The notes beneath the pieces were generated by a model. It had not been told where the DNA came from. It searched no databases and was given only the letters and a program-made list of their open reading frames with translations. From Acidobacteriota bacterium (GTDB taxonomy: Bacteria > Acidobacteriota > Blastocatellia > Pyrinomonadales > Pyrinomonadaceae), in the NCBI GenBank assembly GCA_003222895.1, contig QHXI01000076.1:1-64000 (forward strand): a stretch of 64,000 nucleotides of DNA, read 5' to 3'. A program made the position numbers and the translations under genes. Position 1 is the first letter of the stretch, and the number at the start of each line of letters is the position of its first letter. Below are positions 4,405 to 37,937 of this stretch, one piece after another.

Positions 4405-4547
4405 CGGATCATTCGCAATACGGCGTTAGAGTACGACTTTAGTCGGGTTTTTCGAGCGGCGCAAAGCCAAACCAACCTTGATACTCCCGCACGTCTTTGC
4501 GACGATTCGCTTTGCGTTTATATTTGTCGCGACCAGTCACATCAGAA

Positions 4548-5183
4548 ATGCCAATTTACGACATTACAAATTCCATCCGCTCGCAGATGCCCATATACGA
4601 AGGCGATCCAAGCGTTGAGATTGCCGCGTGGTCTGCAATGTCGAAGGGCGATTCCGCGAACGTTTCTTTTCTGCATCTCGGCGCGCATACCGGAACGCAC
4701 GTCGACGCGCCGGCGCACTTCATCAAGGACGCAGCCCGGATCGATTCCCTTTCACTCGACATCTTGATTGGGCCGGCGCGGGTGGTTCAAGTGCCTGATG
4801 AAGCGACCGAAATCGATCGCGATTTTCTTTTGAGCTGCGATCTTGAGCGCGTCGAACGGATATTGTTCCACACACGCAATTCGAGTTTTTGGAATGAAGG
4901 GTTCCGCAAAGACTTTACGCACCTGCTGCCGGAGGCCGCGGAGTATCTGATCGAAAAAGGAGTCAAGCTCGTCGGAACGGATTACCTTTCGATTGAAAAG
5001 TTTCATTCGGGTCATCACCGCACGCACATCGCCCTACTTTCCCACGGTGTCGTGATTTTGGAAGGCCTGAATCTTGGCGAAGTACCCACGGGCGATTATG
5101 AATTGATCTGTTTGCCGCTGAAGGTTTCCGAAGGCGCCGGGGATGGTGCCCCCGCGCGCGCAGTGCTGCGAACCCTCGATTAA
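4548..5183 (+). CDS. Cyclase-family metal-dependent hydrolase (kynurenine formamidase-like)
   Basis: A 211-residue member of the cyclase/KynB fold, which includes kynurenine formamidases and other amide or lactone hydrolases. The metal-binding signature HTGTHVDAPAHF lies near residues 45-56, and conserved segments such as KLVGTDYLSIE and HGVVILEGLNLGEV follow. The open frame extends upstream to 4497, but the ATG at 4548 gives the typical family N-terminus (MPIYDITNSI), so I use it. No kynurenine pathway genes are adjacent, so the substrate is not determined. Confidence 0.85.
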   Translation: MPIYDITNSIRSQMPIYEGDPSVEIAAWSAMSKGDSANVSFLHLGAHTGTHVDAPAHFIKDAARIDSLSLDILIGPARVVQVPDEATEIDRDFLLSCDLERVERILFHTRNSSFWNEGFRKDFTHLLPEAAEYLIEKGVKLVGTDYLSIEKFHSGHHRTHIALLSHGVVILEGLNLGEVPTGDYELICLPLKVSEGAGDGAPARAVLRTLD

Positions 5184-5187
5184 CATA

Positions 5188-5283
5188 AGCCCTCTCCCTC
5201 TGGGAGAGGGTTGGGGGTGAGGGTGAAACTAGTGACACCAAACTAAGCCCTCACCCTTCCCCTCTTCCAGAGGGAGAGGGGAT
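5188..5283. repeat. Pair of inverted palindromic intergenic repeats (REP/BIME-like)
   Basis: Two related palindromic units lie in opposite orientation between the cyclase and alkyltransferase-like genes. The first (about 5190-5226) reads CCCTCTCCCTCTGGGAGAGG followed by a G-rich tail; the second (about 5250-5282) is its near reverse complement. Each can fold alone, and the two can pair with each other. The distal arm supplies the AGAGGGG that acts as ribosome binding site for the gene at 5290. This resembles the REP-type repeats scattered through many bacterial genomes. Confidence 0.75.
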
Positions 5284-5289
5284 CAAGTT

Positions 5290-5697
5290 ATGAAGAATGA
5301 GAAAACCGATCCGAAATATCGCGAACGCGTCTATAAGATTGTTCGGCGCATTCCGAAAGGCCGCGTGATGACTTACGGACAGATCGCTTACGTGCTCGGC
5401 GAAGGCTATACACCGCGGACCGTCGGCTTTGTAATGCACGGCGCCGACGAAAGCAACACGCCCTGGCATCGCGTGATCAATTCGCAAGGCCGCTGCTCGA
5501 CCGGGCGGATCGTTCTGCCGGCTGACATGCAACAAAGAATGTTGGAACGCGAAGGCGTGAAATTTGACAAAACCAACCGCTGCGATCTCGAAACGTTTCT
5601 TTGGAAGCCACGTAATATCAAGCGAGACAAAGCCGCGAAAGCTCGCGGCACTTTGTATCGACGATCGGGTACACGCACAGCAAAGGAGAAGCGATGA
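5290..5697 (+). CDS. Alkyltransferase-like protein (ATL) of the MGMT family
   Basis: ATL proteins bind O6-alkylguanine in DNA without removing the alkyl group and hand the lesion to nucleotide excision repair. The 135-residue protein has the helix-turn-helix segment (RVMTYGQIA, PRTVGFVMHG) of the O6-alkylguanine-DNA alkyltransferase fold. The active-site PCHRV motif reads PWHRV (residues 58-62), with Trp59 in place of the acceptor Cys, the defining change of ATLs such as E. coli YbaZ and S. pombe Atl1. It therefore cannot be a methyltransferase by the known mechanism. The stop overlaps the next start (ATGA), giving a three-gene operon. The basic C-terminal tail (residues 105-135) is longer than in minimal ATLs. 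Confidence 0.9.
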   Translation: MKNEKTDPKYRERVYKIVRRIPKGRVMTYGQIAYVLGEGYTPRTVGFVMHGADESNTPWHRVINSQGRCSTGRIVLPADMQQRMLEREGVKFDKTNRCDLETFLWKPRNIKRDKAAKARGTLYRRSGTRTAKEKR

Positions 5698-6101
5698 ACA
5701 TTGATCCCGTTCCGCAAACCGCGCCCTACGAAGTTAGTCCGCGACAATACTCAGTCTCGCATCAAATGGCTACAACGGCATTCGAGCTGCCAAACTTTCG
5801 CGTATTGCAAACGCTCGGCGTCGTCCGCGGAATCGTGGTGCGCTCGCGCAACGTGTTTGCGACGCTGGGAGCCACCTTTCAACAAGTCGTTGGTGGTAAC
5901 ATCACGATCTGGACGAAGATGTGCGAAGAGACTCGTCGCGACGCATTCGACCTCATGATTCAACACGCATCCGAGATTGGGGCGAACGCAATTATCGGTG
6001 TGCGTTATGACACGACGGAAATCTCAACCGGCGTAACTGAAGTGCTTACCTATGGCACAGCCGTGATTGTGGAGCCAACTGATTCCAGCTACCGATCATG
6101 A
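5694..6101 (+). CDS. YbjQ/UPF0145 family protein
   Basis: A 135-residue protein of the YbjQ-like family (small oligomeric proteins of uncertain role, sometimes described as heavy-metal-binding). The core begins near residue 32 (FRVLQTLGVVRGIVVRSRN), with the family pattern continuing through the DAFDLMIQHASEIGANAIIGVRYD helix-strand unit. The ATG overlaps the upstream stop by four bases and the gene's own stop overlaps the next start in the same way, so the three genes are translationally coupled. Nothing in the context fixes a function. Confidence 0.85.
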   Translation: MNIDPVPQTAPYEVSPRQYSVSHQMATTAFELPNFRVLQTLGVVRGIVVRSRNVFATLGATFQQVVGGNITIWTKMCEETRRDAFDLMIQHASEIGANAIIGVRYDTTEISTGVTEVLTYGTAVIVEPTDSSYRS

Positions 6102-6520
6102 GTCAAACAGATTTGGATCCACGCAGGTTCGAACGCGCGCGTAGCGCTTTTCGGTCGGTCGCTTACGCAAAATTTCTTGGCCTCGAGATGGGAGAAGTTG
6201 GCGATGGCACGGCCCGCGTTCACCTCGACGTTCGCGACGAGTTGTTGCAGTACCACGGTGTCGTGCACGGTGGTGCAATCGCTTCACTGATCGACACGGC
6301 GTCAGCCTTCGCCGTGCTAACGCGAATCGATCTCGATGACCAGATAACTACCACCGATCTCACCATTCACTATCTTCGGCCAATCAGTTCGGGGCGCATG
6401 ACGGCGACCGCGCGAATCGTTCGCGGAGGCCGGCGGCTGTTCGTCCTCTCGGTCGATGTCAGCAACGACAGTGGCGCGCTGGTGGCAACGGCCGTCACAA
6501 CTTACATAAGACTCCAATAA
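6098..6520 (+). CDS. Hotdog-fold thioesterase, PaaI type
   Basis: A 140-residue single-domain acyl-CoA thioesterase of the PaaI/YbgC hotdog group. The signature HGGAIASLIDTASAFA is near residues 52-67, where the HGG loop and the following Asp belong to the active site in characterised members. The C-terminal strands (LTIHYLRPI, TATARIVRGG) are typical. It is the last gene of the coupled run starting at 5290. The acyl substrate cannot be told from sequence. Confidence 0.88.
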   Translation: MSQTDLDPRRFERARSAFRSVAYAKFLGLEMGEVGDGTARVHLDVRDELLQYHGVVHGGAIASLIDTASAFAVLTRIDLDDQITTTDLTIHYLRPISSGRMTATARIVRGGRRLFVLSVDVSNDSGALVATAVTTYIRLQ

Positions 6521-6649
6521 ATCATCCACAAACCTCAACAAATCTTGCAAAAATTGCCATAGACAACAACGGCGGCAAAATGCCAAAATGGTTTTGGCTC
6601 ACTTAACCTCGTCGAGTCGCCATCCTGTACGCTCACCGACAGCCCGCAA

Positions 6650-8299
6650 ATGCATTCTCTTTACGATCTACTTTTGACTCAGCACGGCCGTCAGCTCGTG
6701 CCGGTTCGCTGTGCTTATTCAACAGTCGGGCAACTTCATCGATATTTTGAAGAGGTCGTTCTTGAAAACAATTTGAGCGCGCTGGTGATCGAGTCGCTGC
6801 CGCTTTCGTCCAAGCGCAGCGCGAGAGAGAAGGCGCGTATTCGCGAACTCGCCCGCGGTAATCGGCGTGCTTTCTTTTTTGCGCATCAAGCCGACGCGTT
6901 GACTGATCTCGCCAGCAGTCTTGGATCGACAGGACCGATCATCCTGCCGCAGTCAGTCGAAGCGCACGTCAACGAACATTTCATCGTTATTGCCGATGCG
7001 CGGTTCTCTGCGCTGTTGGCAACTGTGCGCGGCCGGGCCGATGCGCGCGTTGGCGCTGATGAAGTTATCTGGACCTTCGAGCCCGACATCGTTTATTCCG
7101 CGCTCGAGTATCTAATGGCGCGCGTAGGCGCCGAACATCCTTATCAGGCATCAATGTTTGGATCGGCGGTACGCAGCTCGATGCCGAAAGCGACGTCTCT
7201 GCAACTTACGATCAGCGTCACAACCAAAGTCGCGCACCTGCTTCAGGAACAAGCTGGCCGCGAGATCGCCGTCAATCGAATCGCGACTGCCATTCGTGAA
7301 TCGTTGGAGTTGGGCGTGATTCTGCAGAAGACAGTGGATGAAGTAGGCGTGGCGTTGAACGTCGCCAATTGCGCTCTGCGCGTGGAAGGATCGTCCAGCG
7401 AACAGGCGCTGACCTATTTCTATTTCGATGACCAAGCGGAAAAGATAACTGGTCAGCTAAGTCAGGATCTCGATCGATACTGTTTACGGTTGGGCGAGCG
7501 TTGCGATGTGATCGTTCAGGAGGGTGAGGACGCAGTCGAATCGCAAACGGAGCAATTACCCTTCGCAGTTGTGCCCCTGGTTTTTCACGAACGCTTGATG
7601 GGCGCGTTGCAGGTGACGGCGGCGGATCGCGCGCGTGTCTGGCATGAAAACGAAATTCTCTTGCTGCGTACGGTGGCCAATCAAGTTGCGGTCGCGGTAA
7701 ACCACGCCGCGCTGTTTGCTCAGATTCAGCAACAGGCTTTGACCGATTCGTTGACCGGTTGCTACAACCGTCGCTCTTTCGAAATGCAGCTCGATAAAGA
7801 CATTCAAATGGCGAAGCGTCTCAATCAGCCATTGTCACTGATTATGCTTGATCTCGATCGCTTCAAACACCTGAACGATACCGCCGGGCACGACGCCGGT
7901 GATGAGGCGTTGCGGCTTCTGGCAAATTGTTTTCGACAGGAACTGCGTGCCGTCGATTCAGCGGCACGATTCGGCGGCGACGAATTCGCGCTGATTCTGC
8001 CACAAGCCTATGCAGACGGAGCGATGATCGTCGCCGAGCGTCTACGCGAGCGAATTGAAAAGATCAACGTCCCAGGATTTGGAAATATTACCTCATCAAT
8101 CGGTATTGCGACGTTCCCGTTCCACGCGAATTCACGCGCTGAATTGTTCCGCGCCGCCGACGACGCGCTTTACGCAGCCAAACGCGCCGGACGCAACCGA
8201 GTTGTTCTCTCAGCGAACCCCACGGCCGAACCGACGCCGATCACTCTTAGCGCCGACGACACGCACACACCGGATGTTTCCGGCGAACACGTGATGTGA
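6650..8299 (+). CDS. Diguanylate cyclase with DICT-like, GAF and GGDEF domains
   Basis: Predicted to make cyclic di-GMP from two GTP in response to a signal. Residues about 1-160 resemble a DICT sensory domain, about 190-355 a GAF domain, and 365-525 a complete GGDEF domain. The catalytic GGDEF is at 442-446 and an inhibitory I-site RxxD (R433-D436) lies exactly five residues upstream, so both activity and product inhibition should be intact. There is no signal peptide or membrane segment, so it is cytosolic. The protein ends in a Thr/Pro-rich tail. The ATG has no clear Shine-Dalgarno. The PilZ protein at 22664 is the only likely c-di-GMP receptor in the window. Confidence 0.92.
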   Translation: MHSLYDLLLTQHGRQLVPVRCAYSTVGQLHRYFEEVVLENNLSALVIESLPLSSKRSAREKARIRELARGNRRAFFFAHQADALTDLASSLGSTGPIILPQSVEAHVNEHFIVIADARFSALLATVRGRADARVGADEVIWTFEPDIVYSALEYLMARVGAEHPYQASMFGSAVRSSMPKATSLQLTISVTTKVAHLLQEQAGREIAVNRIATAIRESLELGVILQKTVDEVGVALNVANCALRVEGSSSEQALTYFYFDDQAEKITGQLSQDLDRYCLRLGERCDVIVQEGEDAVESQTEQLPFAVVPLVFHERLMGALQVTAADRARVWHENEILLLRTVANQVAVAVNHAALFAQIQQQALTDSLTGCYNRRSFEMQLDKDIQMAKRLNQPLSLIMLDLDRFKHLNDTAGHDAGDEALRLLANCFRQELRAVDSAARFGGDEFALILPQAYADGAMIVAERLRERIEKINVPGFGNITSSIGIATFPFHANSRAELFRAADDALYAAKRAGRNRVVLSANPTAEPTPITLSADDTHTPDVSGEHVM

Positions 8300-8332
8300 T
8301 TCCGGCCTCGCTTTGCCACGCAGATCATTCTC

Positions 8333-8401
8333 CCTTAAACTCGAAAATTCAGAGTCAACGATTCTCCGAGCTTCCTCGAACGATATTCATTCGAGTTAAG
8401 G
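8333..8401. repeat. Imperfect inverted repeat before the ABC exporter genes
   Basis: The arm CCTTAAACTCGAA at 8333-8345 is matched by TTCGAGTTAAGG at 8390-8401 with one bulged base and a loop of about 44 bases. It lies between the diguanylate cyclase and the first ABC gene and ends just before the TTG start. It could be an operator or a weak terminator; there is no U-tract. Confidence 0.35.
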
Positions 8402-8405
8402 TGGA

Positions 8406-10103
8406 TTGAAACTCTGTTTTGAGTTTATGGGTGATCTGCGCAAATTCTTCGGCTATTTTCGGCCATACAAGACTTCATTGATTGTTGGTGTCGTCTGCAT
8501 CCTGGTGGGGGTTATTTTCAATGTCACTATTCCGTTGATTGTCGGCAAGGTGATCGATGCGAATTGGAACGACGTAACCTGGACCAAGTTGACGATCGCA
8601 GCCTTGAAGGTACTCGGCGCCAGCGCCTTAAGCGGACTGTTTCTGTTTCTGCAACGCCGCATCCTCATTGGCATGTCGCGGCACGTTGAATACGATCTGC
8701 GCAACGATTTCTATGCCGCGCTCGTCGACCAACCGCTCTCATTCTTTCACGAACACCGCACCGGCGATCTGATGGCGCGCGCGACAAACGATCTCGCCGC
8801 CGTGCGTCAACTCGCGGGCCCGATGATCATGTATTCGCTGCAGACTGTTTTCGTTGTCCTCATCATCCTGCCGATCCTTTTCACGATCAATTGGAAACTC
8901 ACGCTGCTGTTATTTGTGACGATGCCGCTAGTGTCGCTCACCGTAAAGTTTTTTGGACAACAAGTTCACGTCCGCTTCGAAAAGATCCAGGATTTCTTTT
9001 CGCAGATTACTGCGCGCGCGCAAGAGAATTTCACCGGCGTGCGCGTTGTGCGTGCGTACGCGCAGGAGAACGCCGAGATCGAAGCTTTCAATAAGCTGAA
9101 CTACGAATACGCGCAAAAGAATCTCGGACTGGTGCGCACCGATGCGCTGATGCGGCCGTTGATGACTTTTCTAATCGGCTTCGGATTTGTGCTGATTATT
9201 TGGGTCGGCCCGCTGTTGGCGGCGCGCGGCCAACTCACCGCCGGCCAGTTCACCGAATTCAACATGTATCTCTTCCGCTTGATTTGGCAGGCCATCGCTA
9301 CTATCAAGCCGCTGATTGCCGATGCACCTCAGGTGATTCCACGGCCGCCGATCCAGGGAAAAATCGATTTCCGCGATTTCACTTTTCGCTATCACGCCGA
9401 TTCGGAACCGGTGCTGCGCGACATTAACTTGACGATCGAAGCGGGTCAGACGGTGGCGTTCGTCGGACGCACGGGCAGCGGCAAATCAACTTTGGTGAAT
9501 TTGATTCCGCGGGTGATCGAAGCGCCCGCCGGCTCTCTTCTAATCGATGATATTCCCGTGGCCGAATATCCGTTGGCCCAACTGCGCGGCGCAATCGGCT
9601 ATGTCCCGCAGGAGACTTTTCTATTTAGCAATTCGCTCGCGAAAAACATCGCGTTCGGCGTTGATGAAGCAGAGCGCCAAAAGATCGAGTGGGCCGCAGA
9701 AGTCGCCGGCCTAACCGATGACGTGCGCGATTTTCACGAGGGCTTTGATACATTGGTGGGCGAGCGCGGCATCACACTTTCAGGCGGACAGAAACAACGC
9801 ACGGCGATCGCCCGCGCAGTCCTGCGCGAACCGAAGATTCTGATTCTCGACGACGCGCTGTCGTCGGTTGATACGTACACGGAAGAAAAGATTTTGTCGA
9901 AATTGCGCGCCGTGATGCGCGCGCGCACCAGCATCATCGTTTCGCATCGCGTCTCAACCGTGCGACATGCCGATCTGATTTGCGTCCTCGATGAAGGCCG
10001 CATCATCGAGCGCGGCACGCATGATGAATTGCTTGCGCTCGGCGGCGAGTATGCTGAATTGTACGAACGGCAATTGTTGGAAGAAGAGTTGGCGGCAACA
10101 TAA
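8406..10103 (+). CDS. ABC exporter half-transporter with degenerate catalytic site
   Basis: Membrane domain (about residues 15-300) fused to an ATP-binding domain. Walker A GRTGSGKS is at 354-361 and the signature LSGGQ at 458-462. Walker B ends LDDALSSVD, with Asp483 where the catalytic Glu is expected. That substitution marks the degenerate partner of heterodimeric exporters such as TM287/288. The link between the last membrane helix and the ATPase domain is short: the conserved stretch that in the neighbour protein reads [14 protein letters not shown] is missing around residue 298, an in-frame loss of some 20-30 residues. The start is TTG 8406 or ATG 8427; neither has an ideal ribosome binding site. 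The partner gene follows at 10187. Substrate unknown. Confidence 0.9.
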
Positions 10104-10180
10104 TTGTCAGTACCACCTGCGATAGCGGGTGGGTTAAGGCAGGCAGGATGCCCGCGAACTGCAGGCAGGATGCCCGCGCT
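10104..10180. repeat. Composite intergenic repeat between the ABC genes
   Basis: A hairpin-forming unit (CCACCTGC with GCGGGTGG, about 10112-10131) is followed by two direct copies of GGCAGGATGCCCGCG at 10142-10156 and 10164-10178. If the second ABC gene is started at the upstream ATG (10148), this repeat would be translated, an argument for the later start. Confidence 0.65.
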
Positions 10181-10186
10181 CCAAAC

Positions 10187-12058
10187 ATGTCGACCTCAGT
10201 CAAACAATTTCACGAAGAAGAAGCCATCGGCAAAACGTATGACTTTCAGGTCGCGCGCCGTTTGCTCGGCTATCTCAAGCCATACATCAGGCTGCTGATT
10301 CCGGCGCTGATTCTTACGCTGCTGCTCAATCTGTTTGGAATTCTTCAACCGCTCTTTACGCGCTTCGCGATCGATTGGTACATCCTGCCGAAGAGAACTG
10401 AGGGAGTCGGGTTATTTGCGCTTGCGTTTGTGGCCAGTCAATTCCTGCGATTGGTCTTCTCGTATTTCCAGGTCGTATCGCTTAACACCGTCGGCCAATA
10501 CGCGATGTACGATCTTCGTCGCGAGATTTACGAGAAACTCCAGCATCAGGAAATTTCTTATTACGATCGAAATCCGGTGGGCCGCATCATTACGCGTTTG
10601 ACCGCCGACGTCGATGCTTTGAACGAGTTGCTGACTTCCGGTGTGACCGATCTGCTTGGCGACCTGGTCATGATCGTGGCGATCATCGCCGTGATGGTCT
10701 ACATGGATTGGCGTTTGACGCTGGTGACTTTGTTGACGGTGCCGATGTTGATCGCGGCGACCACGTGGTTTCGCAAAGGGGCGCGTCGCGGTTATGACCT
10801 GGTGCGCACGCGCATCGCGCGCATATATGCATTTTTGCAAGAGCATTTCTCAGGCGCGCAAACGGTTCAAATCTTCAACGCTCAACTGAAGTCGATTCGC
10901 CGCTTCGCGAAGATCAACGACGAGCATCGCCAGGCAAACATCGACACGATTTTCTATTACGCAGTGTTCTTTCCGCTGGTCGACTTTATCGGCGCGGTCG
11001 GTATCGCTTTACTGATTTGGTTCGGCGGCTATCGCGTAATGCAACACGCGCTGACGCTGGGCGGCCTGGTCGCCTTCATCCAATACTCCGGCTTCTTGTT
11101 CCAGCCGATTCGCGACATCTCAGACAAATACAACGTCCTGCAGGGCGCCGTAGTCGCGTCGCATCGAATCTTTCAGACGCTCGATCAACCGACTTTGATT
11201 ACGACGCCGGCCCAGCCGTTGAAAAAAGGCCGCGCCGAAGGACGAATTGAATTCGAGAATGTTTGGTTCGCTTACAAAGACGAAGATTGGGTTTTGAAAG
11301 ACGTCTCGTTTAGCGTCTCGCCGGGGCAATCGGTGGCGCTCGTGGGCCACACCGGTTCCGGCAAGACGACCATCACGAATTTGTTGATGCGATTCTACGA
11401 TGTGCAGCGAGGTCGCGTGCTACTCGACGGCGTTGACGTGAAAGATTGGGATTTGCAATCGCTGCGCGAGAATTTCGCGGTGGTCTTGCAGGACATCTTT
11501 CTCTTTAGCGGCACGGTTGAAAGCAACATTCGCCTCGGTCGCACCGACATTTCTGACGAACGCATCCGCTGGGCGGCGACGGAAGTGCGCGCCGACAATT
11601 TCATTCGTCGCTTGCCGCTCGAATATAAGTCAGAAGTGCGCGAGCGCGGCGCCGGGTTGTCAGTCGGCCAGAAACAATTGATCTCTTTTGCGCGGGCGCT
11701 GGCTTTCGATCCGGCGCTCTTGATTCTTGATGAAGCGACCAGTTCGATCGACACTGAAACTGAACAATTGATCCAGGAAGCTATTGCGCGCGTAATGCGC
11801 AATCGCACTTCGGTGATCGTTGCGCATCGCCTGTCGACGATTCAGCGCGCGGATAACATCATCGTGCTGCATCACGGCGAGATTCGCGAGCAAGGCTCGC
11901 ATCAAGACCTGCTGGCATTACAAGGCCTCTATTGGAAGCTTTACAAACTGCAATATTCGGATCCGACCTGGCTGGCAGAAGCGAAGGAAGAAGAGCAAGA
12001 ACAAATCACCTATCGACCACGCGGGCCCAGCTTTTCCTTCGGCGAAGGAATGGGCTGA
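10187..12058 (+). CDS. ABC exporter half-transporter, catalytic partner
   Basis: A 623-residue half-transporter with six predicted membrane helices (about 30-320) and an ATPase domain. Walker A GHTGSGKT is at 387-394 and Walker [10 protein letters not shown] has the catalytic Glu516. The signature reads LSVGQ (491-495) rather than LSGGQ. In heterodimeric exporters the degenerate ATP site pairs the Asp-type Walker B of one subunit with the deviant signature of the other, and that is the combination seen here. The two genes should therefore form one transporter with one working ATP site. I chose the ATG at 10187; the open frame begins at 10148 inside a repeat. It converges on a broken LamG gene. 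Confidence 0.92.
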
Positions 12059-12066
12059 GGACCAGT

Positions 12067-12532
12067 TCACGGCTTACTACATTTTCCAACTCTTCCAGCG
12101 TCATAGATCGCGAAAACCTCGCTCTCTGTGAGAGCGCGGTTGAAGAGTTCCAATTCATCGAGGGTTCCTTTCCAATATCCATTCAATGAGAACGAGCGAA
12201 CTCCCAGCCGCAACGGCGCAGCATTATCCAACGTGCCCGTCAGAGGTGTGCTGGGAGGATGGATCCAGGCTCGTATCTTTACCGTCAACGTACCACCTGA
12301 CTGTGAACTTGTTAATTGTGCGATTCACCGCGACGGCAATGTGATGCCAGGTCCCATCCGCGACAAATGCACTCGCGGGGTAATTGTTGTAGGTACCTCC
12401 GGCCGCCAGTTGTAGAAACTCGCTGAAGTCCGGCATTTGGCGAGTCTGCGTTTTAGCCTCAACGCCCGCAAGTGTCATCACGATCAGAAATAAACCAGCT
12501 CGGATAACAGTTGAAGTACTTGTGAGAGCCAT
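12067..12532 (-). pseudogene. LamG/concanavalin-like secreted protein, frameshifted
   Basis: Two overlapping minus-strand frames make one gene. The first starts at ATG 12532 after AAGGAG, encodes a signal peptide (residues 1-26) and the LamG strand motif DGTWHHIAVAVNR, and runs off frame after YVDGK near 12280. The second frame carries the rest of the fold (TLDNAAPLRLGVRS, YWKGTLDELELFNRAL) and stops at 12067. A single-base change between about 12230 and 12290 joins them. Even repaired, the domain is short, since the first half of a usual LamG sandwich is absent. It lies downstream of the cytochrome operon on the same strand. It is either a decayed gene or a sequencing error. Confidence 0.75.
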
Positions 12533-12586
12533 TACACTCCTTCAGGTTGAGAATTTACCAATTCGCGAGACGCAGACGCCATCTTG

Positions 12587-15495
12587 CTATGAGCAACGAA
12601 ACGGCCCGCTCGTGTTGCTGCAGCTCACGGAATTTTGCACGATCTTCAATTTCCACCCATCAGCCTCAGTCCCATCGAGGTTCAGGTGACCTGCCAGGAA
12701 ATACAAACGCCGCGTGTCTGGTCCATCGGGTCATCGGAGTTCCGGCAAGGTTGCCGATAACATAAGTCAGACTATCGCCGCCCCCGCGTTCGTAATCCTT
12801 GTCTCCCCCAACCCCTTCCGATTCAACGGCCGTGGCGAGATTCTCGTCTATCTTTGAATCGGTGGGAGTCGTATCACCCAACGCCCGCGCAATCTTCAGG
12901 CGATCGGCCAACGGCAAAAAGCCGCGCGGAAGAATACGATTATCCTTTACCTCATCATCGATACTCAGGAAGCTGGTGGTGAGAAACCCGTCCTTGTCTT
13001 TCGCGAGATCCTGATAGATTTGTGCCTGACTCTGCTCAGTGATTTTTGTGTAGTGCGGTTGCCACTTCTGCTCGTTAGCCGGTATGCGCGCCGAGCAATC
13101 GGCCTTCCACCAGTGTTCACCGGCGATCGGTTGGTTCTTTTCATCGACGATCACGCCGGCATCGTTGGTGCGGCCCGAAGCCCACTGGGTGTTGCCATCT
13201 TTGTCGAGCACTTCCAATTCGATGAAGGCGCGCCGGAAGCTGACGCCTGAAGGAAACTTGTGACCGGTTTTGTTTTCGACTTCGACTTGCGCGGTCAGGG
13301 TTTTCTTCGTGGCGTCCCAGTTAGGCGTGACTTTGATCGCCGCGGTTTCATTCTGCGCCTGATCAAGCATGCGTTGTGCAGACGTAACCAGCGGAGCAAC
13401 TGAACCCGGCAAACCGCTCGGATTGTTGATGCGAATTCCCAGCACGTCGGGAAACTGCTGGAACATCTTCAGCAGAAAAACATTCAGCCCAACCAACTCG
13501 TGACGGCCATACGGCGCGCGGGGCGCCAGATCGATATCGCCAGCCGGCAGACGGTAATCAGTCTCAGGATAGTTGCTGAACTCTTCGATCGTGGCGATCT
13601 TGCTTGAATACGCGTTGCCCTTGTTATCATGGTCCGGCATGTGACATCCCTGACATGACTTGGCCAGGTTGCCCGCGCCCAGCGGCAACGGTTTGCCATC
13701 GGCTTCGCCGGTGCGATAAGCGCTGAAGGCCCACTCGGGATAGGTCATCTGTTCATAAACTTTTCGATAGGGCTTCAAAGGATCGCTGCCCGCGGCCGAT
13801 TCATTCTTTATCGGATCGTCAAGCACCGGAAGATGAATCGTGTGACAACTGCCGCACATCTCTGAACTCATCAAGGTAGTGGTGTTGTGGATCGGCTTGA
13901 TGTCCAGAGAGTTTTGCATCAGCTTGGTCTTGGGATTCTCAAATGGACCATACAATTCGTTTGACGGCCCCAGCAGGAAATTCCCGGTGAACGTCAGAGC
14001 AAAACCGGAATGTGTCGCGGGCGGATTGAACTCTTTCTGCTTCTCAGCCACGCAGCGGTTGGCGGGCAGATTGCGATACTTCTCGGCGTCCGCGCCAAGC
14101 ACGAGGTGATGGCACGTTGTGCACGAAATTCCGTCGCGAGCGAGTGCGCCATAAGTCGCATTGGCCGCAGTTGGGTTACTGCTCGGATAAGGAATTGCCT
14201 TGGCGAGGTTGCGTGGGAACTGCCCGCAATCGCCATTGCTCGCAGTGTCGAGCGCGTATTGCCGCTGGCCCATGATGCCGTGACATTGAAGACAAGTGTC
14301 CTGGACCAGCGTGGCTTGTTTGGGATGGAACTGTTGTTCGCTTTCAAGCTGAGCAAAGAAGATCGGATCTCGGCCCGCCAGGCCCATCGGCGATGAAGCC
14401 CACATAGCATAAGGCGAATGATCGAAAAGTGCGCCGCCCAGCTTCGCTTGATTTGCCGCAGGCACGGGCGTCGTCATGTCGTACTGCAATCCCGTCGCGA
14501 ATGGCGTGTGACAGCCGAGGCATTGAGTCGATGTCTGAAAATAGACGGGATCCTTGCCCAGCATCACTTTCTGTTTGCCGCCCACGACAAGATCATCGTA
14601 AGTCTGCGACGGCATTCGATCCACCGTGCCCCAATCGGGCGCCGCGAGTTCTCCTTTGAAAGTCTCCTCGAACGAGTCGTCATAGTTGTAAAGCGCTTCG
14701 CCGAGACGGGCGACGCGATTGGGCGGCAACGCGACCAGTTCATGATGCGGCACGGCCGGCGGAAGGTTCGGAACCAGCTGCGTAAGAAAATGATGAACGT
14801 TCTTTCCATCGTAATTCCGCATCGACACGAACGTGTTGCCGGACACCGTGGCGGCGTGACAGTTTGAGCAGAACTGCGAAGCGCCCTCGCCGCTTCCGGT
14901 CAACGGATTACTTGCCGCGGCCGGCCAGGCGGGCGCCCAACCGGGACCATACCAACTGCCAAACCAACCAGTGCTGAAAGTTTGATCGTCACGAATCCAA
15001 AACACTGCGCCCGAGCTATCTGGTTTTACGCAATCCCAACACGTGCCGGCCCAACGCGCGAGCGGCGGAGTCCACATTTCCTTCACCATCATCGCGCCAT
15101 TGGGAATCGCGGGAGGATCAATTGGCGCCCTGGTTTCATCTTCCGGCCGGTAACGCTTCATCCAGTCGAACATCGGCGGCGAATACCAAACGCGCGAAAC
15201 GGCATGCTGGTTGTAGGCTTGCGACTTCAACACGCCACCCGCCAGCGTCGCCGTGTACGGGCCCGTATCGCGAGCAGTTGAATCATGCGGCCACGCGCGA
15301 TAGCAGAGCTTCTCCATGAACTCAGCCATGACGGGTTCGTACTTATCGAGTTGCGCCTGTCCGCGCGTCGTTGTTCTGTTGCGCCCTTGCAACGGTGGCG
15401 ACGCACCTCAGTAATCCGGCGACTGTCATCAGAGCACAGATTGCGACGATTAGGAGTCGCGCGCGAAAATCAATCCTGGCGTCGTGCAGTTTCAT
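12587..15495 (-). CDS. Six-heme c-type cytochrome with P460-like N-terminus, frame broken at both ends
   Basis: The main open frame (12666-15392) carries six CxxCH heme sites: CSNCH, CLGCH, CLQCH, CTTCH, CGSCH and CQGCH. Before the first site the pattern WYSPPMFDWM, IPNGAMMVKE, GWFG resembles cytochrome P460 domains. The protein is a paralogue of the one at 18396 (shared CHGxMGQRQ, LARDGISC, GHKFPSG). The signal peptide (LLIVAICALMTVAG) lies in another frame, starting at ATG 15495 after GGAG, and the frames meet near 15360. The expected C-terminus (YFLAGHLNLDGTEADGWKL) also lies in another frame, ending at a TAG at 12587-12589, and about 45 residues present in the paralogue are missing near 12740. 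Likely a periplasmic electron carrier or oxidoreductase. Confidence 0.8.
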
Positions 15496-15586
15496 ATCGG
15501 CTCCACATCGAATCGGGTGATGCGATGGTGGATTTCCAAGGGCGGACAAATGCATACGGTTCTCTTAAGACTTGAAAACAGGTCCT

Positions 15587-15982
15587 TCACTGACACTCGC
15601 CAGGCGTTGAATCGACTGGCGAAAATGTTGCGAAGAGCAGTGAGTCTTCCTTCGAAATATTGTGATATGCGTGGCAGACGCCTTTGGGAATAACGATAAT
15701 ACCGCCCGCCGCCATGCTGACCTTACCTTGAGAAAGCTGAACATAGCCGTTGCCGTTAAGAACGGAAATCACTAGATCGCTATTGGGGTGTGTATGGGGA
15801 AGCTCATGACCGCGAACCAAAACCAAAACCTGCTTAACGCCGGCCTGCGAGCTGAGGATCTTCGCGGCAAGTTGCGGGGTATCGGGCGGCAGCTTATCGA
15901 TTTGTTTGCGCAATTGGATTGCCACGTCGTTCAAATCGATTGGCTTGTCGCCCGCTACCGTAAAGCTGTGAATCATTATCAT
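15587..15982 (-). CDS. Cupin-domain protein
   Basis: A 131-residue protein with a single cupin barrel in its second half. The metal-binding pattern is partly visible: HTHPNSDLVISVLNGNG (about 63-79) for motif 1 and PKGVCHAYHN (about 98-107) for motif 2. The N-terminal 45 residues are helical and not part of the barrel. There is no signal peptide, so it is probably cytosolic. It lies 42 bases downstream of the GMC oxidoreductase and upstream of the broken cytochrome on the same strand, so it is probably co-transcribed. A regulatory or small-molecule-binding role for the redox operon is a guess. Confidence 0.8.
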   Translation of the reverse strand: MIMIHSFTVAGDKPIDLNDVAIQLRKQIDKLPPDTPQLAAKILSSQAGVKQVLVLVRGHELPHTHPNSDLVISVLNGNGYVQLSQGKVSMAAGGIIVIPKGVCHAYHNISKEDSLLFATFSPVDSTPGECQ

Positions 15983-16024
15983 CTGAACCTTTTGTCTTGA
16001 TCAGCAACTTACTTTGAAGAATCT

Positions 16025-17947
16025 TCACGGACTCAACTGATTCTTGATCGTGTCGGCCGCCCACAGTGCTAAAGCAGAGATCGTTAGCGTGGGATTTCCT
16101 GTCGCGTAACTGGGCCAATTACCAGAGCCCAGCAAATAGAGATTCGGATGGTCGTGCGCTTGCTGTAATCTGTTGGTGACCGACATCTTCTTGCCTGCGT
16201 CCGTGTCCGGACCCATTCGGTGCGTGCCCATCACGTGGCCCGCGCCGGCCCAGCCTTCGCGGATGAAAATGTTTGGCGTGCCGCTGTCGGTGGTCCGTCC
16301 TTGATCGATAACGATGCTTCCGTTCGCGTCGGAAAACTCTTCATAGTTCCACTGGACGACGGGGTTCTTGATCATGCTCTTGAAGATTTGCACCGACGCC
16401 GCCACTGCCGCGGCCAGCGCGCGCCGCCCATAGGTATCAATCCCATAGGTAAGTTGTGGCATCAGGATGCCAAGCTGATCGGGCGTTTTGGAAAGCTGCA
16501 CGCGGAAATTTGGGTTGGGCAGTTGCTCGGTGAGACAGCCGATGCGAATTTGGCGCGTCAAGGTATTAGCGACTTGCTCTGCTAACGCCTGGCCCCAGAT
16601 GCCGTTGCCCGGCGTGCCGAGCAGATTCATCGGCGTGGTGTAGGGATCGCTGATGGGCCAGGACCATGCGTCGTTGCCAATCTCCATGCGAAACGCGCCG
16701 CGATAAGATCGGAACCCGCCGTCACGCAAACTTTCGACACCGGACGTGCTGAGTGGACCACGATATCCGTAGACCGGATTGTCGGTGAGCGCGTAAACCA
16801 AAGACACTGGATGATCGGCGAGATTGCGCCCCACCTGATCACTTTGATTGGCGACGGTGATTGTGCCGCACGGCGAGTTCAATAACAGCTTAGAGTTTTC
16901 GACCGCGTGCGACGCCAGCACGTAGATCTTTCCCGTTACTATGCCCTCGGTGCTGCTGATATTTCCGTTGGCATCCGTTTGCCAGTTCTTATATTTGATT
17001 CCCGTGATGGGCAGATTTGAATTGGTGGTGTCGGCGACCACTTGATAAGCAACACACTGCACGCGGAACTCAACGTTACCGGTTTGCTGTGCCAGTTGAA
17101 TGTGTTGGGTAGCGTCGTACTTTGCTTGAATCGGACAGACCGGAATGCAACTGCTGCTGCCCTGACATTGCGGACGGCCGCCGTAACCAGGCGCCGAATT
17201 TCGCGCCTGCGGCGTGGGCGCAACTTCGAGCGGATAATTCTGCTTGGTCCATCCGTCGTAAAAAGTCTCTCCTTGAATTGCGGCGATCAGTTGCTGATCG
17301 AGATAGCTCTGCGGAATTCCGGGCATGGGATAAGCGCTGCTCCGCGTCAGCCCCAGATATTCCTCACCTTCGTCCGGCCCTGAGACGCCGATGGTTTGTT
17401 CGGCGAGTCCGTACCACGGCTCGATCTGGTTGTATGAAATGGGCCAGTCGTAGGCCGTAAGACCGCCGGGTACGCTCGGGTTGTAAGTGCTCTCGAGTGC
17501 GAAATCCGTGGGCAGCAGGCGCAGCGTAGTTCCCAGCCAATGCCAGGTCGCACCACCCAACTGCCGCTCATAATTTGACTGAAACCAATCACCTTTGGTC
17601 GTGACGTCGGTACTGATGATGTTGTAATCGCTGAACGGCTCTGCTATTTCGTTTATCTGAGCGCCGATTGGTCCCTGCGCAGGTCGCGTCGGCGGCTGCT
17701 CCTGATAATAGTTTGTGCTGTTGGTGAAGAAGTCATAGTTCTTCAACGCGGCGGGACGCAGCGGATAAGGCAAGCCGCTGACTTTGAAGTTGTCCACGTA
17801 ACTTTGTCGCTGCGCGAGACTCTGATTTCCGGGACCGGATTCGAGCACGATCACCTTCACGCCTTGTGATCCCAGCTTCCACGCGACCAGCGAGCCCGCG
17901 ATGCCGGCGCCGACGATCACTACATCACAATCAAGTGGTTGGCTCAT
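16025..17947 (-). CDS. GMC-family FAD-dependent oxidoreductase, large subunit
   Basis: A 640-residue flavoprotein of the glucose-methanol-choline family, closest in arrangement to membrane-associated sugar or alcohol dehydrogenases that pass electrons to a cytochrome. The FAD-binding GAGIAGS motif is near residue 12, followed by VIVLESG. A Cys-rich stretch (CQGSSSCIPVCP) sits mid-protein as in fructose and gluconate dehydrogenase subunits. The C-terminal GTHRMGPD and NPTLTISALALWAAD motifs hold the active-site region. I start at ATG 17947, with GGAG about eight bases upstream; the open frame reaches 18040. It begins 15 bases after the small-subunit gene. I see no Tat signal, so export may depend on the partner. 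Confidence 0.9.
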   Translation of the reverse strand: MSQPLDCDVVIVGAGIAGSLVAWKLGSQGVKVIVLESGPGNQSLAQRQSYVDNFKVSGLPYPLRPAALKNYDFFTNSTNYYQEQPPTRPAQGPIGAQINEIAEPFSDYNIISTDVTTKGDWFQSNYERQLGGATWHWLGTTLRLLPTDFALESTYNPSVPGGLTAYDWPISYNQIEPWYGLAEQTIGVSGPDEGEEYLGLTRSSAYPMPGIPQSYLDQQLIAAIQGETFYDGWTKQNYPLEVAPTPQARNSAPGYGGRPQCQGSSSCIPVCPIQAKYDATQHIQLAQQTGNVEFRVQCVAYQVVADTTNSNLPITGIKYKNWQTDANGNISSTEGIVTGKIYVLASHAVENSKLLLNSPCGTITVANQSDQVGRNLADHPVSLVYALTDNPVYGYRGPLSTSGVESLRDGGFRSYRGAFRMEIGNDAWSWPISDPYTTPMNLLGTPGNGIWGQALAEQVANTLTRQIRIGCLTEQLPNPNFRVQLSKTPDQLGILMPQLTYGIDTYGRRALAAAVAASVQIFKSMIKNPVVQWNYEEFSDANGSIVIDQGRTTDSGTPNIFIREGWAGAGHVMGTHRMGPDTDAGKKMSVTNRLQQAHDHPNLYLLGSGNWPSYATGNPTLTISALALWAADTIKNQLSP

Positions 17948-17961
17948 GTTCGCTCCAGTCG

Positions 17962-18399
17962 TCATGCTCCGCTTGGCGGATATTGCCAGTAGCCAAACGA
18001 CAGCGGCACGCCCATCGGATGCCCTTGCGCCAGCACCCAAACCAACGCGCGTTCATAGTTCGCAGGATCGGGAGTCGGTTGTTGACCCGGAAACCACGGA
18101 TGAAATCCGTTGTACCAGGCCAGAATGATCTGACGCGCCAGCAAACCGAGATTCGGATCATTCATGATTTGCGTGTTCACCAAATTGGTCCATTGATTCG
18201 CAGGTTGTTGCTGAATCTGCGTCCAGTTGGTGAGCAATGAATTCATGTACGAGGCTTGCGGGCTGTGCTGGTTCAGTTGCGTGAAATAAATATTCGCTAA
18301 ATCAGGATCGAGATCGGTGATCGGAGATAGAACCAGCGGTGGTTGCAGCGGAATTCCCAAAAGGAATTCCGAAAGGCTGATGAAGTCTTGCAAGTTCAT
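17962..18399 (-). CDS. Small subunit of FAD-dependent dehydrogenase (sorbitol/gluconate dehydrogenase type)
   Basis: A 145-residue protein resembling the small subunits that accompany GMC-type sugar and alcohol dehydrogenases. The family features are the FISLSEFLLG start, a central LARQIILAWYNG segment (about residues 87-98) and the C-terminal YERALVWV and FGYWQYPP motifs. The small subunit is usually needed for folding or export of the large subunit, and some carry the Tat signal; none is evident here. The ATG overlaps the stop of the upstream cytochrome gene (ATGA), and the GMC gene follows after a short gap, so the three are one operon. Confidence 0.75.
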   Translation of the reverse strand: MNLQDFISLSEFLLGIPLQPPLVLSPITDLDPDLANIYFTQLNQHSPQASYMNSLLTNWTQIQQQPANQWTNLVNTQIMNDPNLGLLARQIILAWYNGFHPWFPGQQPTPDPANYERALVWVLAQGHPMGVPLSFGYWQYPPSGA

Positions 18400-21300
18400 C
18401 TGAAAGTTCCTTTCGGCAGCTTGATTCGCTCAGGCAAAGCGGCCGGCGAAACCGACGGCGGACAAGTCATTCCGGCCATTTCTGCGAAGCAAGCCGAACC
18501 GATGTTCATGGTCCAATTGTTTGAAACCAGAGCCGGCAGACCCTGCTGTTGCGGGACCGAATTGGTGATGTTCATGTCCAGATGACTGGTCGCAAACAGC
18601 AGACGTTCAGTAGCCGCTCCCAATCCAACAACGCCGCCTTCGCTCATCGGATTCGAATAGGCTTGGCCGTCATAAAATCGATCGCGCAGGAAGTAAGGCG
18701 GAATCGATTGATAGTGCATGATTACCTGGACCTTCGCGACCTTCGCGCCATTCAAAGCACTGATCGGAATTTTGTAGAGCACATGATCGACTCCGGCGAT
18801 GCCTGAAGGCTGGCCGCCCGTCACGCCACCAGGAGTGCAAAAATCCGGATCAGAAAACGCACCCATCGGATTGATCGTCACATTTGGATCAGTTCCTTCG
18901 ATCCCCGCGGGCGCCGTGATCCGGGAAACCAGAAATCCATCGAGACCGTTCACCATTCGACCGGAACTCGAATCGGCAGTGCCCGGTCCGATCTTGCCAC
19001 TGCAGTTGTAGGGCGGAATCCAACCAGCCGGAGGAATGCGATTGTCTTTGGCTTCACTGAAAAGCCGCGTGGTTGCGGTGGTCAATTGTCCGTACTCGTT
19101 TTTCGATCGCACTTCATAAATTTGCACTTGATCCTGACGAGTGATCGCCGGATTAGCGGCGCTGCCGAAATGCGGCTGAAGAAACGCGGACTGATACGGC
19201 ACGTTGCCCGGCGGAAACTCTGTCGCCAAAACCTTACCGTCGTTATCTACGATCGCTCCGAACTGATCGACGGCGCCTGACACCCAAAGCGTTTTGCCCG
19301 CGCTGTCGAGTAGCCGAAACTCCAGGAAACCGCGGCGGAATCCAGCGCCGGTTGGGAACCGATGACCGCTGAAATTTTGCACCGCGACTTGATACGTCAG
19401 ATTGTTTGGATCGGGCGTAAGACTGCCGCAGGGCGTGTTGTTTGTGCCCGCCTTACAGACCGACACCGAAATCGTTGTCGGCGCGTGAGTCAGGATCGTC
19501 TCTTCGGCGTTCTGCAAACTCTTCACGGTGCCGGGCGGCACGGCGGCTTCAGTCGCATCGGACATTCCCAGGATGTTGGGGAATTGTTGATACATCTCGT
19601 GCACGAACAGATTGATCGCCATCAGACGATGTCGCGGATAACTCGCATTGCTCGAAACTGAGACCTGATCGTTGGCGCGATATTGCGATTGCGGAAACCC
19701 ACCGACACCGGCCGGCGACGAATCAGTCGCGACTGTGCCCGGGCCGTTGATGTTGGCGATCGCCATCATGCGCCCTTCGGCGTTCGGCATATGACAGAAA
19801 GTGCAGGACGTCTGTGGTGTCGCGCCGCCAAAGCTGGCAGAAGCGGCCCACTCGAGGTACGTCGACTGTTCAAAGGATTGCTGTACGCATGGATCGATCG
19901 TCGGATCGTATTTTCCGTTTGGCAGCGGCTTCACGGGCGGACACGGCTTGTTGGTTCCCGGATACATCGCCGGTTGGGTTGGCGGCGCATTCGGATTGTT
20001 GGGATTCAGCTGATAGCTGTTGCGAACAGTGGGATAAGCAATCGGAACCTCAGGCGCAATCACCACGTGACAGCCACCGCACAACTCGCCCTTCGGCATA
20101 AATTCGCGCGTAACAGTCGCAACGTTGAAGTTCTGTGAATGTCCATAGATGTTCGCGGCCGGCGGATTAGATCCGGCAACAAAGCGAGCTGCGCCCGCAT
20201 AACTGTTGAGCGGATCGGGATCAGGCGCGGCAAAGTTTTTGAGGTTGTATAAAACCGATCCGGCAAACGGATACGGCAAACCTACCGGCAGTTCCAACGA
20301 AGCGACCGCCGGATTCTTGAATCCATAAAACACCGACCACGCATCGGACGGCGCCGGACCTTGCTGTGGTCCGATGTAATGACACATTGCGCAGGAGATA
20401 CCGTCGCGGGCGAGTGCGCCGTATTTTGCAAACACCGGTTGCGCGCCCGGCTTGTTACAGGGGAATCCCCGATAGGTGCATCCGTTAGGCGTCGCATAAG
20501 TCATGAGGTGACTGAAATTCGGTTCGCGGGGCAGCGGCGTTCCCGGCGGAACCTGTGTCGGGTCGCCGCCATTGTCGATATGAAACTGGCGCTGACCCAT
20601 CGGTCCGTGGCATCGATAACAGAAATTATCGATTGAGGTCGGCTCGACCATATTGTGAAGCACTCGCTCAGTCTCGATTTGAGAGAGGAACGCCGGGTCG
20701 CGCGACGCCAGCGCCATAATCGAGACCGACCATTCTCCATACTGCGAGATGTTGAAGAGGTTGCCGCCTTTTGGCGCTGATCCCGGTCCTTGCACACTGT
20801 ACTTGTAAGCAGTAGCCACCGGCGCCCATTGCCTGGCGCCGTTAGACTGCATTGAAAGCAGTGCCGTCGAATCGTGGCATCCCTGGCATTGGTTCGAAGT
20901 GATGAACGCCGGTTGATTCGGTCGCAGATATACGCTGTCCGTCACTTGCGGCGGAATGGCGAGCACTTTGGACACGGGTAAACTCGCAATCGGCGGCAGC
21001 GGTTTTTTTTGAAACTCGATCACCGCGCTGTTGAAAAAATCGATGAACTGCTGGGCCGCGATGTCTCCCAACGGCTGACGCAACTGCGAAGTTGCCGGTG
21101 GCGTCAATGCGGACAACAACGAACTGGTGCTCTGCGAGATGAAAGTCGGAGTGTAAGTCGACGGCGTCGGTGGGCGTTTGGTGTTTGCAAAACTCGCGAA
21201 CGTCAGATTGTTAACGGCCGACGAGTGACACGCCACGCACAACCCGAGCGAATAGTTTCCCATCGATGCGGCCACTCGCGTACCACCAAAGTTATTTGGA

Positions 21301-21776
21301 TCAATAATTATTTGACTGAAGAACCATCCGCTTGCCGGATCGCTTTTTCTGTTCGCCGCCTGACGAATCATCACGAGATAACCGGTGACAGCCGTGGTCG
21401 GCGATCCTGAGACTGGCATAATCGCGGCAACCATTGTCGCGCCATCAGGAATAGCGGCAATCTGCGAGGGTATCGTGATCCCGTCGGGGCGATTCGTTTG
21501 CATCCACGACAACATCGCCGGCGAGTAGTAGACTTTGATTTGATCGTGAACGCTGTAAGTGACGCCCGAGACTGTGCTGCCGGTCAGATGTGACGCAGCG
21601 TCTGCTGTCCACGCCGTCAGAAAACAACCGCCGCGCACAAAAGTCTGAACGGCCTGCTGATAGACCCCAACGTTGCCGTTGGCAGGAGCAGTCGGCGCCA
21701 CGCATGCGGCCCGAGCGACTGACATCGACAGCAGGACAAAACCGATTGCGAGAAAGAGGCCTCGAGAGCTCTTCAT
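18396..21776 (-). CDS. Six-heme c-type cytochrome with P460-like N-terminal domain
   Basis: A 1126-residue exported protein (signal peptide residues 1-23, GGAGG seven bases before the ATG). Six CxxCH sites are at 180-184, 297-301, 386-390, 462-466, 566-570 and 658-662. The region before the first heme (YYSPAMLSWM, IPDGATMV, SGWFF, then CVACH) resembles cytochrome P460. After residue 700 there is a heme-free beta-rich domain (GHRFPTGAGFRRGFLEFRLL) shared with the paralogue at 12587. It is first in the operon, overlapping the dehydrogenase small subunit by four bases. The simplest model is that it takes electrons from the GMC flavoenzyme in the periplasm. The exact family is not one I can name. 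Confidence 0.88.
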   Translation of the reverse strand: MKSSRGLFLAIGFVLLSMSVARAACVAPTAPANGNVGVYQQAVQTFVRGGCFLTAWTADAASHLTGSTVSGVTYSVHDQIKVYYSPAMLSWMQTNRPDGITIPSQIAAIPDGATMVAAIMPVSGSPTTAVTGYLVMIRQAANRKSDPASGWFFSQIIIDPNNFGGTRVAASMGNYSLGLCVACHSSAVNNLTFASFANTKRPPTPSTYTPTFISQSTSSLLSALTPPATSQLRQPLGDIAAQQFIDFFNSAVIEFQKKPLPPIASLPVSKVLAIPPQVTDSVYLRPNQPAFITSNQCQGCHDSTALLSMQSNGARQWAPVATAYKYSVQGPGSAPKGGNLFNISQYGEWSVSIMALASRDPAFLSQIETERVLHNMVEPTSIDNFCYRCHGPMGQRQFHIDNGGDPTQVPPGTPLPREPNFSHLMTYATPNGCTYRGFPCNKPGAQPVFAKYGALARDGISCAMCHYIGPQQGPAPSDAWSVFYGFKNPAVASLELPVGLPYPFAGSVLYNLKNFAAPDPDPLNSYAGAARFVAGSNPPAANIYGHSQNFNVATVTREFMPKGELCGGCHVVIAPEVPIAYPTVRNSYQLNPNNPNAPPTQPAMYPGTNKPCPPVKPLPNGKYDPTIDPCVQQSFEQSTYLEWAASASFGGATPQTSCTFCHMPNAEGRMMAIANINGPGTVATDSSPAGVGGFPQSQYRANDQVSVSSNASYPRHRLMAINLFVHEMYQQFPNILGMSDATEAAVPPGTVKSLQNAEETILTHAPTTISVSVCKAGTNNTPCGSLTPDPNNLTYQVAVQNFSGHRFPTGAGFRRGFLEFRLLDSAGKTLWVSGAVDQFGAIVDNDGKVLATEFPPGNVPYQSAFLQPHFGSAANPAITRQDQVQIYEVRSKNEYGQLTTATTRLFSEAKDNRIPPAGWIPPYNCSGKIGPGTADSSSGRMVNGLDGFLVSRITAPAGIEGTDPNVTINPMGAFSDPDFCTPGGVTGGQPSGIAGVDHVLYKIPISALNGAKVAKVQVIMHYQSIPPYFLRDRFYDGQAYSNPMSEGGVVGLGAATERLLFATSHLDMNITNSVPQQQGLPALVSNNWTMNIGSACFAEMAGMTCPPSVSPAALPERIKLPKGTFR

Positions 21777-22012: not shown

Positions 22013-22663
22013 ATGAGCAGAAGCCAACCAGCCGATTCCATCATTACGGTCCGCCACACGGCGAGCGATATTGCCGGGAGTTTGGACGATCGTGAATGGC
22101 GCGAAGCGCAGCCGGTGACAATCGATCATTACTGGTCAGGTGAGAAAGCTCCCGCAGGTCGTCAAGCCGAAGCGCGGATCCTGTGGTCAAAGAAAGCGCT
22201 GCACATCCGATACGTTTGTCATCAAGCCGAGCCGCTAATCATCAGCGACAAGCCGCAGACAGAAAAGAAAACGATGGGGTTGTGGGATCGGGATGTCTGC
22301 GAAATTTTCATCGCGCCGGATCCAAACACCATCGAAAGATATCTCGAGTTTGAAGCGGCACCGACGGGCGAATGGTTGGACGTGGCGATTCACTGGACGC
22401 CGGAGAAGCGCGATTCAGATTGGGAATTTAATTCGCACATGACGACGGCCGCACACATCGAAAAGGATCGCGTCACGATTGCGATGCGCATCCCCTGGAA
22501 CCATTGGATTCATGAACCACAGAAGGGTGAGCGCTGGCGAGTAAATCTCTTTCGTTGCGTCGGGAAAGATCCGAATCGCGGCTATCTTGCCTGGCAGCCG
22601 ACGCGAACGCCCGAACCAAGTTTTCATGTGCCGAAGTTTTTTGGGTGGCTTAGGTTCGCTTAA
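22013..22663 (+). CDS. Carbohydrate-binding family 9-like protein
   Basis: A 216-residue protein matching the CBM9-like beta-sandwich in its key positions: a DDREWREAQPV start, the LWSKKALHIRYVC strand, and the diagnostic WDRDVCEIFIAPD segment (about residues 95-107), followed by YLEFEAAPTGEWLD. It consists of the one domain with no signal peptide or catalytic module. Such stand-alone proteins are common in Acidobacteriota and Bacteroidota and their ligand is usually unknown. It is divergent from the cytochrome operon and convergent with the PilZ gene. Confidence 0.82.
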   Translation: MSRSQPADSIITVRHTASDIAGSLDDREWREAQPVTIDHYWSGEKAPAGRQAEARILWSKKALHIRYVCHQAEPLIISDKPQTEKKTMGLWDRDVCEIFIAPDPNTIERYLEFEAAPTGEWLDVAIHWTPEKRDSDWEFNSHMTTAAHIEKDRVTIAMRIPWNHWIHEPQKGERWRVNLFRCVGKDPNRGYLAWQPTRTPEPSFHVPKFFGWLRFA

Positions 22664-37925: not shown

Positions 37926-37937
37926 CGGTTGAATCGA

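Follow-up and report, generated by a model that had tools for sequence, protein, structure and literature searches.

A GMC dehydrogenase gene pair overlapping the gene for a six-heme cytochrome with a P460/c′-beta-type domain: a possible redox unit in an Acidobacteriota genome

FAD-dependent glucose, fructose and sorbitol dehydrogenase complexes consist of a GMC alpha subunit, a gamma "hitchhiker" subunit and a triheme cytochrome beta subunit, and this FDH/GDH-type enzyme class is used in direct-electron-transfer glucose sensors. In the classical enzymes, a Tat leader on gamma exports alpha. The P460 fold is so far known from the chemistry of hydroxylamine and NO. For BcGDH, PMC6719666 gives Cys212, Cys218 and Cys222 as the ligands of a 3Fe-4S cluster that is held to pass electrons to the c-type subunit.

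The window examined here (the whole 64,000-nt stretch of acidobacterial contig QHXI01000076.1 that was analyzed) contains the features listed in the table. Its alpha subunit carries the Pfam domains GMC_oxred_N and GMC_oxred_C and finds glucose and fructose dehydrogenase large subunits (7w2j, 6a2u) among PDB sequences, with its three cluster cysteines aligning with those of BcGDH. The gamma subunit matches PF12318 with 39.9 bits (E 6.4e-10; cut-off 24.2). The cytA and gamma genes overlap by 4 bp (ATGA), as do the gamma and GMC genes, and the GMC start was set at 17965 because of the overlap with gamma. Searching by eye from gamma back to the previous stop revealed no leader, Tat or otherwise, and no export signal was found on the window GMC protein. 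The disulfide between alpha Cys213 and gamma Cys152 has no counterpart in this pair, as Gln occupies the alpha position and gamma contains no Cys. A three-heme cytochrome subunit is likewise absent from the window operon, where six-heme cytA is found in its place.

Table. Features of the window discussed in the text.
Feature	Position	Strand	Basis or remark
Second six-heme gene, cytB (908-aa open frame at 12666-15392)	12587..15495	(-)	homologue of cytA
Cupin, 131 aa (Pfam Cupin_2)	15587..15982	(-)	Pfam; sits between GMC and cytB
Alpha subunit (GMC dehydrogenase), leaderless, 646 aa	16025..17965	(-)	Pfam, PDB matches
C-x5-C-x3-C, 3Fe-4S ligand motif in GMC	17135..17167	(-)	alignment to 8hdd
gamma, small subunit of the GMC enzyme (145 aa; PF12318, FAD-SLDH), leaderless and without Cys	17962..18399	(-)	Pfam
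cytA, six-heme cytochrome, 1126 aa	18396..21776	(-)	Sec-type signal peptide by eye
Pentaheme c552-like core of cytA (residues ca. 285-1126): hemes 2-6 plus the C-terminal beta region, which is free of heme	18399..20924	(-)	superposition on 5ze8
P460/c′-beta-type domain of cytA (residues ca. 35-205), carrying heme 1	21162..21674	(-)	family-profile match
Ala117 codon of cytA, column of the P460 cross-link lysine (McP460 Lys78)	21426..21428	(-)	alignment

A sequence-only reading of this DNA had described a 1126-residue cytochrome with six CxxCH sites whose gene overlaps that of the small subunit, and had assigned to it a P460-like N-terminus and a heme-free beta domain; each of these points is borne out. 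The CxxCH motifs of cytA are at residues 180, 297, 386, 462, 566 and 658, the first of them near the end of the P460/c′-beta-type domain. A family profile of the N-terminal domain finds PDB chains of cytochrome P460 (E 1.5e-7), and the remaining core gives a sequence-profile match to pentaheme c552 (E 1.2e-7). The predicted model of cytA, which is low in confidence (mean pLDDT 56.8), superposes on pentaheme c552 5ze8 over 332 of 385 residues (Z 11.6, rmsd 4.0, model range 341-1100), compared with Z 8.0 for the next-ranked row, and the heme-free C-terminal beta region lies within the superposing part. Across 22 aligned homologues, neither the six-heme arrangement nor dozens of individual residues vary, and the observation is therefore more than chance. 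Judged from the profiles and the predicted model, cytA is a fusion of a cytochrome P460/c′-beta-type domain to a pentaheme c552-like core.

In McP460, Lys78 is the heme cross-link lysine, according to a table in PMC11928373. A conserved lysine of the six-heme family aligns with residue 78 of the McP460 chain in 6hiu, and this column holds Lys in 39 of 43 six-heme rows, Ala in two, a gap in one and Asp in one, the last being a damaged, partly masked record. The two Ala rows are cytA, in which the N-terminal domain thus lacks the cross-link lysine, and the protein of locus L112; these are exactly the two GMC-linked six-heme proteins. The same two cytochromes group together in trees (support 99/99 with 22 rows and 96/93 with 41 rows), in a join between two long branches that the tree program flags as possibly false. 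Among 21 conserved columns changed in both, seven bear the same new residue and are shared derived characters.

Within the class, 25 of 162 genomes contain matches to cytA; such matches also occur in 16 of 396 genomes in a sample of the phylum and 22 of 294 in a sample of Planctomycetota, as well as in 15 of 282 genomes of the phylum and 6 of 289 of the class of the Myxococcota MAG SZUA-265; these sets overlap partly and have different limits, and many of the weaker matches are pentaheme-only relatives. When 44 other six-heme loci were viewed with their flanks, a GMC gene was found at one, several of the 44 lying on contigs shorter than 9 kb, where a missing GMC gene is weak evidence. That one locus, L112 in SZUA-265, has the cytochrome-gamma-GMC order of the window in a different phylum. 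The 44 include four without a complete six-CxxCH ORF (L039, L185, L188 and L193) and count L163 and L112 once as the same place; left out are the pentaheme-only relatives of about 570-660 aa (L154-L157, L166-L169, L172 and L173) and L040, which has a short match only. Seen from the enzyme side, six-heme linkage occurs at one of 80 GMC loci from a genome scan, and in a tree of the GMC enzymes, those of the window and L112 do not join. The six-heme family is usually solitary, and its linkage to GMC is rare. As to a conserved linkage of the two families, for which a neighborhood search had been suggested, the order recurs at L112, and the other 43 loci show no GMC gene.

Two side observations concern this family and its relatives. 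A six-heme member annotated as hypothetical resides on a plasmid of Paracoccus seriniphilus (L174:11737-14748), where Nqr genes and a gene of the cytochrome c3 family lie nearby. Some pentaheme relatives (L155:7173-10066, L156:563-3534, L157:7483-10291) come after, and overlap, a one-heme c-type protein whose C-terminal region is long, which represents a different pairing.

The genomic site was compared with that of a same-genus genome, G005, one continuous stretch of which (locus L027) matches window positions 3933-15366 and 22085-22602. In G005, the same flanks enclose a cytB gene (82% identity) but not the block of cupin, GMC, gamma and cytA that occupies 15.4-21.9 kb of the window; the block may have been gained in the window or lost in G005. 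Compared with the L027 orthologue, the window cytB, which has a below-cut-off match to PF16694, is out of frame at both ends and has no in-frame signal peptide. The sole upstream start resembling a signal peptide, the ATG at 15495, is in another frame, which ends near 15343. Close to the 3′ end, a 68-nt gap in the comparison with the orthologue shifts the frame, which may explain why the gene was earlier read to 12587. This frame damage may reflect mutations or assembly errors. Elsewhere in the window, positions 33798-43124 on the minus strand hold two very long tandem ORFs of 1375 and 1728 aa.

These data bear on the earlier picture of a GMC dehydrogenase between two cytochromes, with a paralogue following the enzyme. 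The second six-heme ORF is indeed homologous to cytA and both cytochrome genes are on the same strand, but a cupin gene intervenes, cytB is damaged as sequenced, and its position beside the enzyme looks accidental, given that G005 has cytB there without GMC. Because of this relative, and because cytB is out of frame here, we exclude cytB from the cytA-gamma-GMC unit. Two same-strand six-heme genes flanking the enzyme might otherwise suggest that cytA, cytB and GMC form one periplasmic or extracellular electron-transfer system; with cytB at the same place in G005 without GMC, out of frame at both ends in the window, and with no leader on gamma or GMC, we consider this very improbable.

A chance join at a site of gene exchange, in which cytA would act alone like its solitary relatives, agrees with the block missing from G005 and with the 43 other six-heme loci, several on short contigs, at which no GMC gene is seen. 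We nevertheless judge such a join unlikely, as it leaves the 4-bp overlaps of three genes and the same order in another phylum to coincidence, together with the loss of the conserved lysine in exactly cytA and the L112 protein. The nearest relative of the window GMC enzyme (67%; L070) shares the GMC-cupin order, with a related cupin downstream in a different setting, and has no cytA beside it; a search of its genome for a cytA homologue found none.

A smaller heme protein accompanies many related enzymes. Of the 80 loci from the genome scan, which was run with a GMC alignment, L109 was dropped (its GMC is cut by the contig start, and no gamma was found), and the remaining 79 with nine further loci, including the window, make up 88 gamma-GMC rows, in which one contig is duplicated (L063 = L138). 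By profile, 30 of the 88 encode, directly upstream of gamma and on the same strand, a protein of some 450 aa that has a single CxxCH. The gamma proteins fall into 31 with Tat-like leaders and 57 with none; a Tat pattern had automatically called 35, four of which (L086, L093, L095 and L099) were reclassed as leaderless by eye. The one-heme neighbor occurs in 28 of the 57 leaderless rows, with 24-116 bases between profile matches, and in two of the 31 Tat rows, at 239 and 317 bases (Fisher p 3.9e-5, overstated because near-identical strains remain among the rows). A further 28 leaderless rows have no one-heme match, and one has a match elsewhere. Another locus, from a Planctomycetota MAG, encodes gamma as the C-terminal domain of a protein of 1242 aa (L101:6313-10041) that by eye resembles a molybdopterin oxidoreductase and whose gene overlaps a GMC gene at 10013-11803.

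Pfam searches with 18 one-heme members yielded no convincing family match. The predicted structure (pLDDT 73) has P460 or c′-beta proteins as its best 17 rows (Z 5.0-6.1), the next unrelated row scoring Z 3.5, and the alignments span 129-144 residues, nearly the whole of the targets. Foldseek ranked P460 chains second and third, with weak E values of 0.29 and 0.41. All 18 rows retain the lysine of a G-x4-K motif. Since Z near 6 is modest, it is the rank order, the full-domain coverage and the lysine together that make the case, and by this predicted model the one-heme neighbors apparently have the P460/c′-beta fold. An attempt to connect the N-domain of the six-heme proteins with the one-heme family by sequence was dropped, hhalign being weak (probability 19%, P 0.0012) and the one-heme profile finding no P460 match among PDB sequences; the link is drawn instead from the predicted fold and the common G-x4-K spacing. 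A second one-CxxCH family near gamma-GMC genes (L061:7274-8977, L059:12028-13557, L109:3977-5440, L112:4116-6062) has the same spacing by eye and is possibly another P460-fold family. Heme proteins of the P460 fold thus appear to be repeated partners in this branch of GMC enzymes, with cytA as the six-heme version, and the previously proposed pairing of GMC with a P460-like cytochrome fares better in its one-heme form (30/88 rows) than in its six-heme form, for which the linkage is only 1/44.

The compartment in which these enzymes work is harder to reconcile with such a partnership. Inspected by eye, the N-termini of cytA and of most one-heme proteins resemble Sec or lipoprotein signals, whereas the window gamma and GMC are leaderless, which makes the periplasmic oxidation system proposed in the sequence-only reading less likely. 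The link to extracellular electron transfer that the same reading put forward finds no support in the features observed. The BcGDH-type gamma-alpha cysteine pair is found in 27 of 31 Tat rows and in none of the 57 leaderless rows. The missing pair was considered as proof of a cytoplasmic place, and this was dropped because at two one-heme loci, L120 and L145, gamma has a Tat leader and no pair; its absence may mark descent rather than place. The leader at these two loci suggests that enzyme and heme partner would there share one compartment.

If the leaderless alpha-gamma is instead cytoplasmic and uses an internal acceptor, the exported P460-fold protein would serve the same pathway outside without direct electron transfer, in ligand, NO or peroxide handling or in later oxidation of the product. 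Such an arrangement, a serious possibility that we hold at clearly less than even odds, agrees with the 57 of 88 gamma rows that have neither leader nor inter-subunit cysteine pair, and with leaderless loci that include Streptomyces without a heme neighbor. It also has a precedent in MftG, known as a GMC enzyme connecting a cytoplasmic cofactor with respiration (PMC11778925). Nineteen GMC loci (e.g., L121), none with a Tat gamma, have a common neighbor cluster whose example reads as ferritin-like, which again fits a cytoplasmic place. Less easily accommodated are the surface 3Fe-4S motif, kept in 88 of 88 GMC rows, the two one-heme loci with a Tat gamma, and the heme gene immediately upstream, with its 4-bp overlap in the window. 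On balance, a cytoplasmic enzyme is nearly as likely as a redox pair with an exported heme protein.

Our preferred reading, with a probability of roughly 0.45, is that cytA, gamma and GMC form a translationally coupled redox unit in which a P460-fold heme protein replaces the usual three-heme cytochrome. The enzyme would be of the FDH/GDH type, with FAD, a surface 3Fe-4S cluster and a hitchhiker-type small subunit, and its partner would be a one-heme protein in many relatives and a six-heme protein in the window and one Myxococcota MAG. Electrons would pass from a substrate hydroxyl to FAD, to the 3Fe-4S cluster, to heme 1, to hemes 2-6 and to a periplasmic acceptor; the heme 1 domain, having no cross-link lysine, would be c′-beta-like, and hemes 2-6 would form a pentaheme c552-like wire. 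Of this, the gene order with its overlaps, the identities of the domains, the conserved cluster cysteines and the repeated occurrence of the P460-fold neighbor are observed, and we infer the electron transfer between proteins, its direction, the substrate, and the arrival of alpha-gamma in the periplasm although it carries no leader. The redox unit is supported by the 4-bp overlaps, the gene order at L112, the universal cluster motif and the one-heme neighbors, and by the alanine confined to the two GMC-linked six-heme proteins, which group together and share seven derived residues. It is weakened by leaderless gamma and GMC set against exported cytA and most one-heme proteins, by the single linkage among 44 six-heme loci, the GMC tree without a join, the flagged long branches and L070 without cytA, and by the leaderless rows in which a one-heme match is missing or lies elsewhere. 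The broader proposal, that a widespread GMC branch without a Tat leader uses a P460-fold redox partner, either a one-heme protein with an invariant cross-link lysine or a six-heme fusion without it, is offered more tentatively.

A search of open-access journal articles found no system joining a GMC oxidoreductase to a cytochrome P460. The gene neighborhoods point to a previously unrecognized partnership between enzyme and cytochrome. If this is true, the P460 fold takes part in the oxidation of carbohydrates or alcohols, many one-heme proteins that now lack annotation receive a name, and the enzyme class of direct-electron-transfer glucose sensors acquires new natural partners. It would also raise the puzzle of how an enzyme without a leader comes together with a heme protein that is exported.

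Among known systems, the locus has in common with the BcGDH/FDH complexes the GMC fold, the C-x5-C-x3-C motif and a PF12318 subunit encoded just upstream; it differs from them in that gamma has neither a Tat leader nor the gamma-alpha cysteine pair, and in that a six-heme cytochrome with a P460 domain replaces the triheme beta subunit. The N-terminal domain of cytA resembles cytochromes P460 and c′-beta by profile, as the one-heme neighbor family does by predicted fold, but cytA carries an attached pentaheme core and has lost the cross-link lysine of cytochrome P460, and by our reading of the alignment, the McP460 distal carboxylate Asp102 listed in the table of PMC11928373 is not conserved at the aligned column. 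The pentaheme cytochrome c552 whose structure (5ze8) superposes on the core of the cytA model (Z 11.6) is that of Thermochromatium tepidum; cytA is distinguished from it by an additional N-terminal heme domain and by long insertions.
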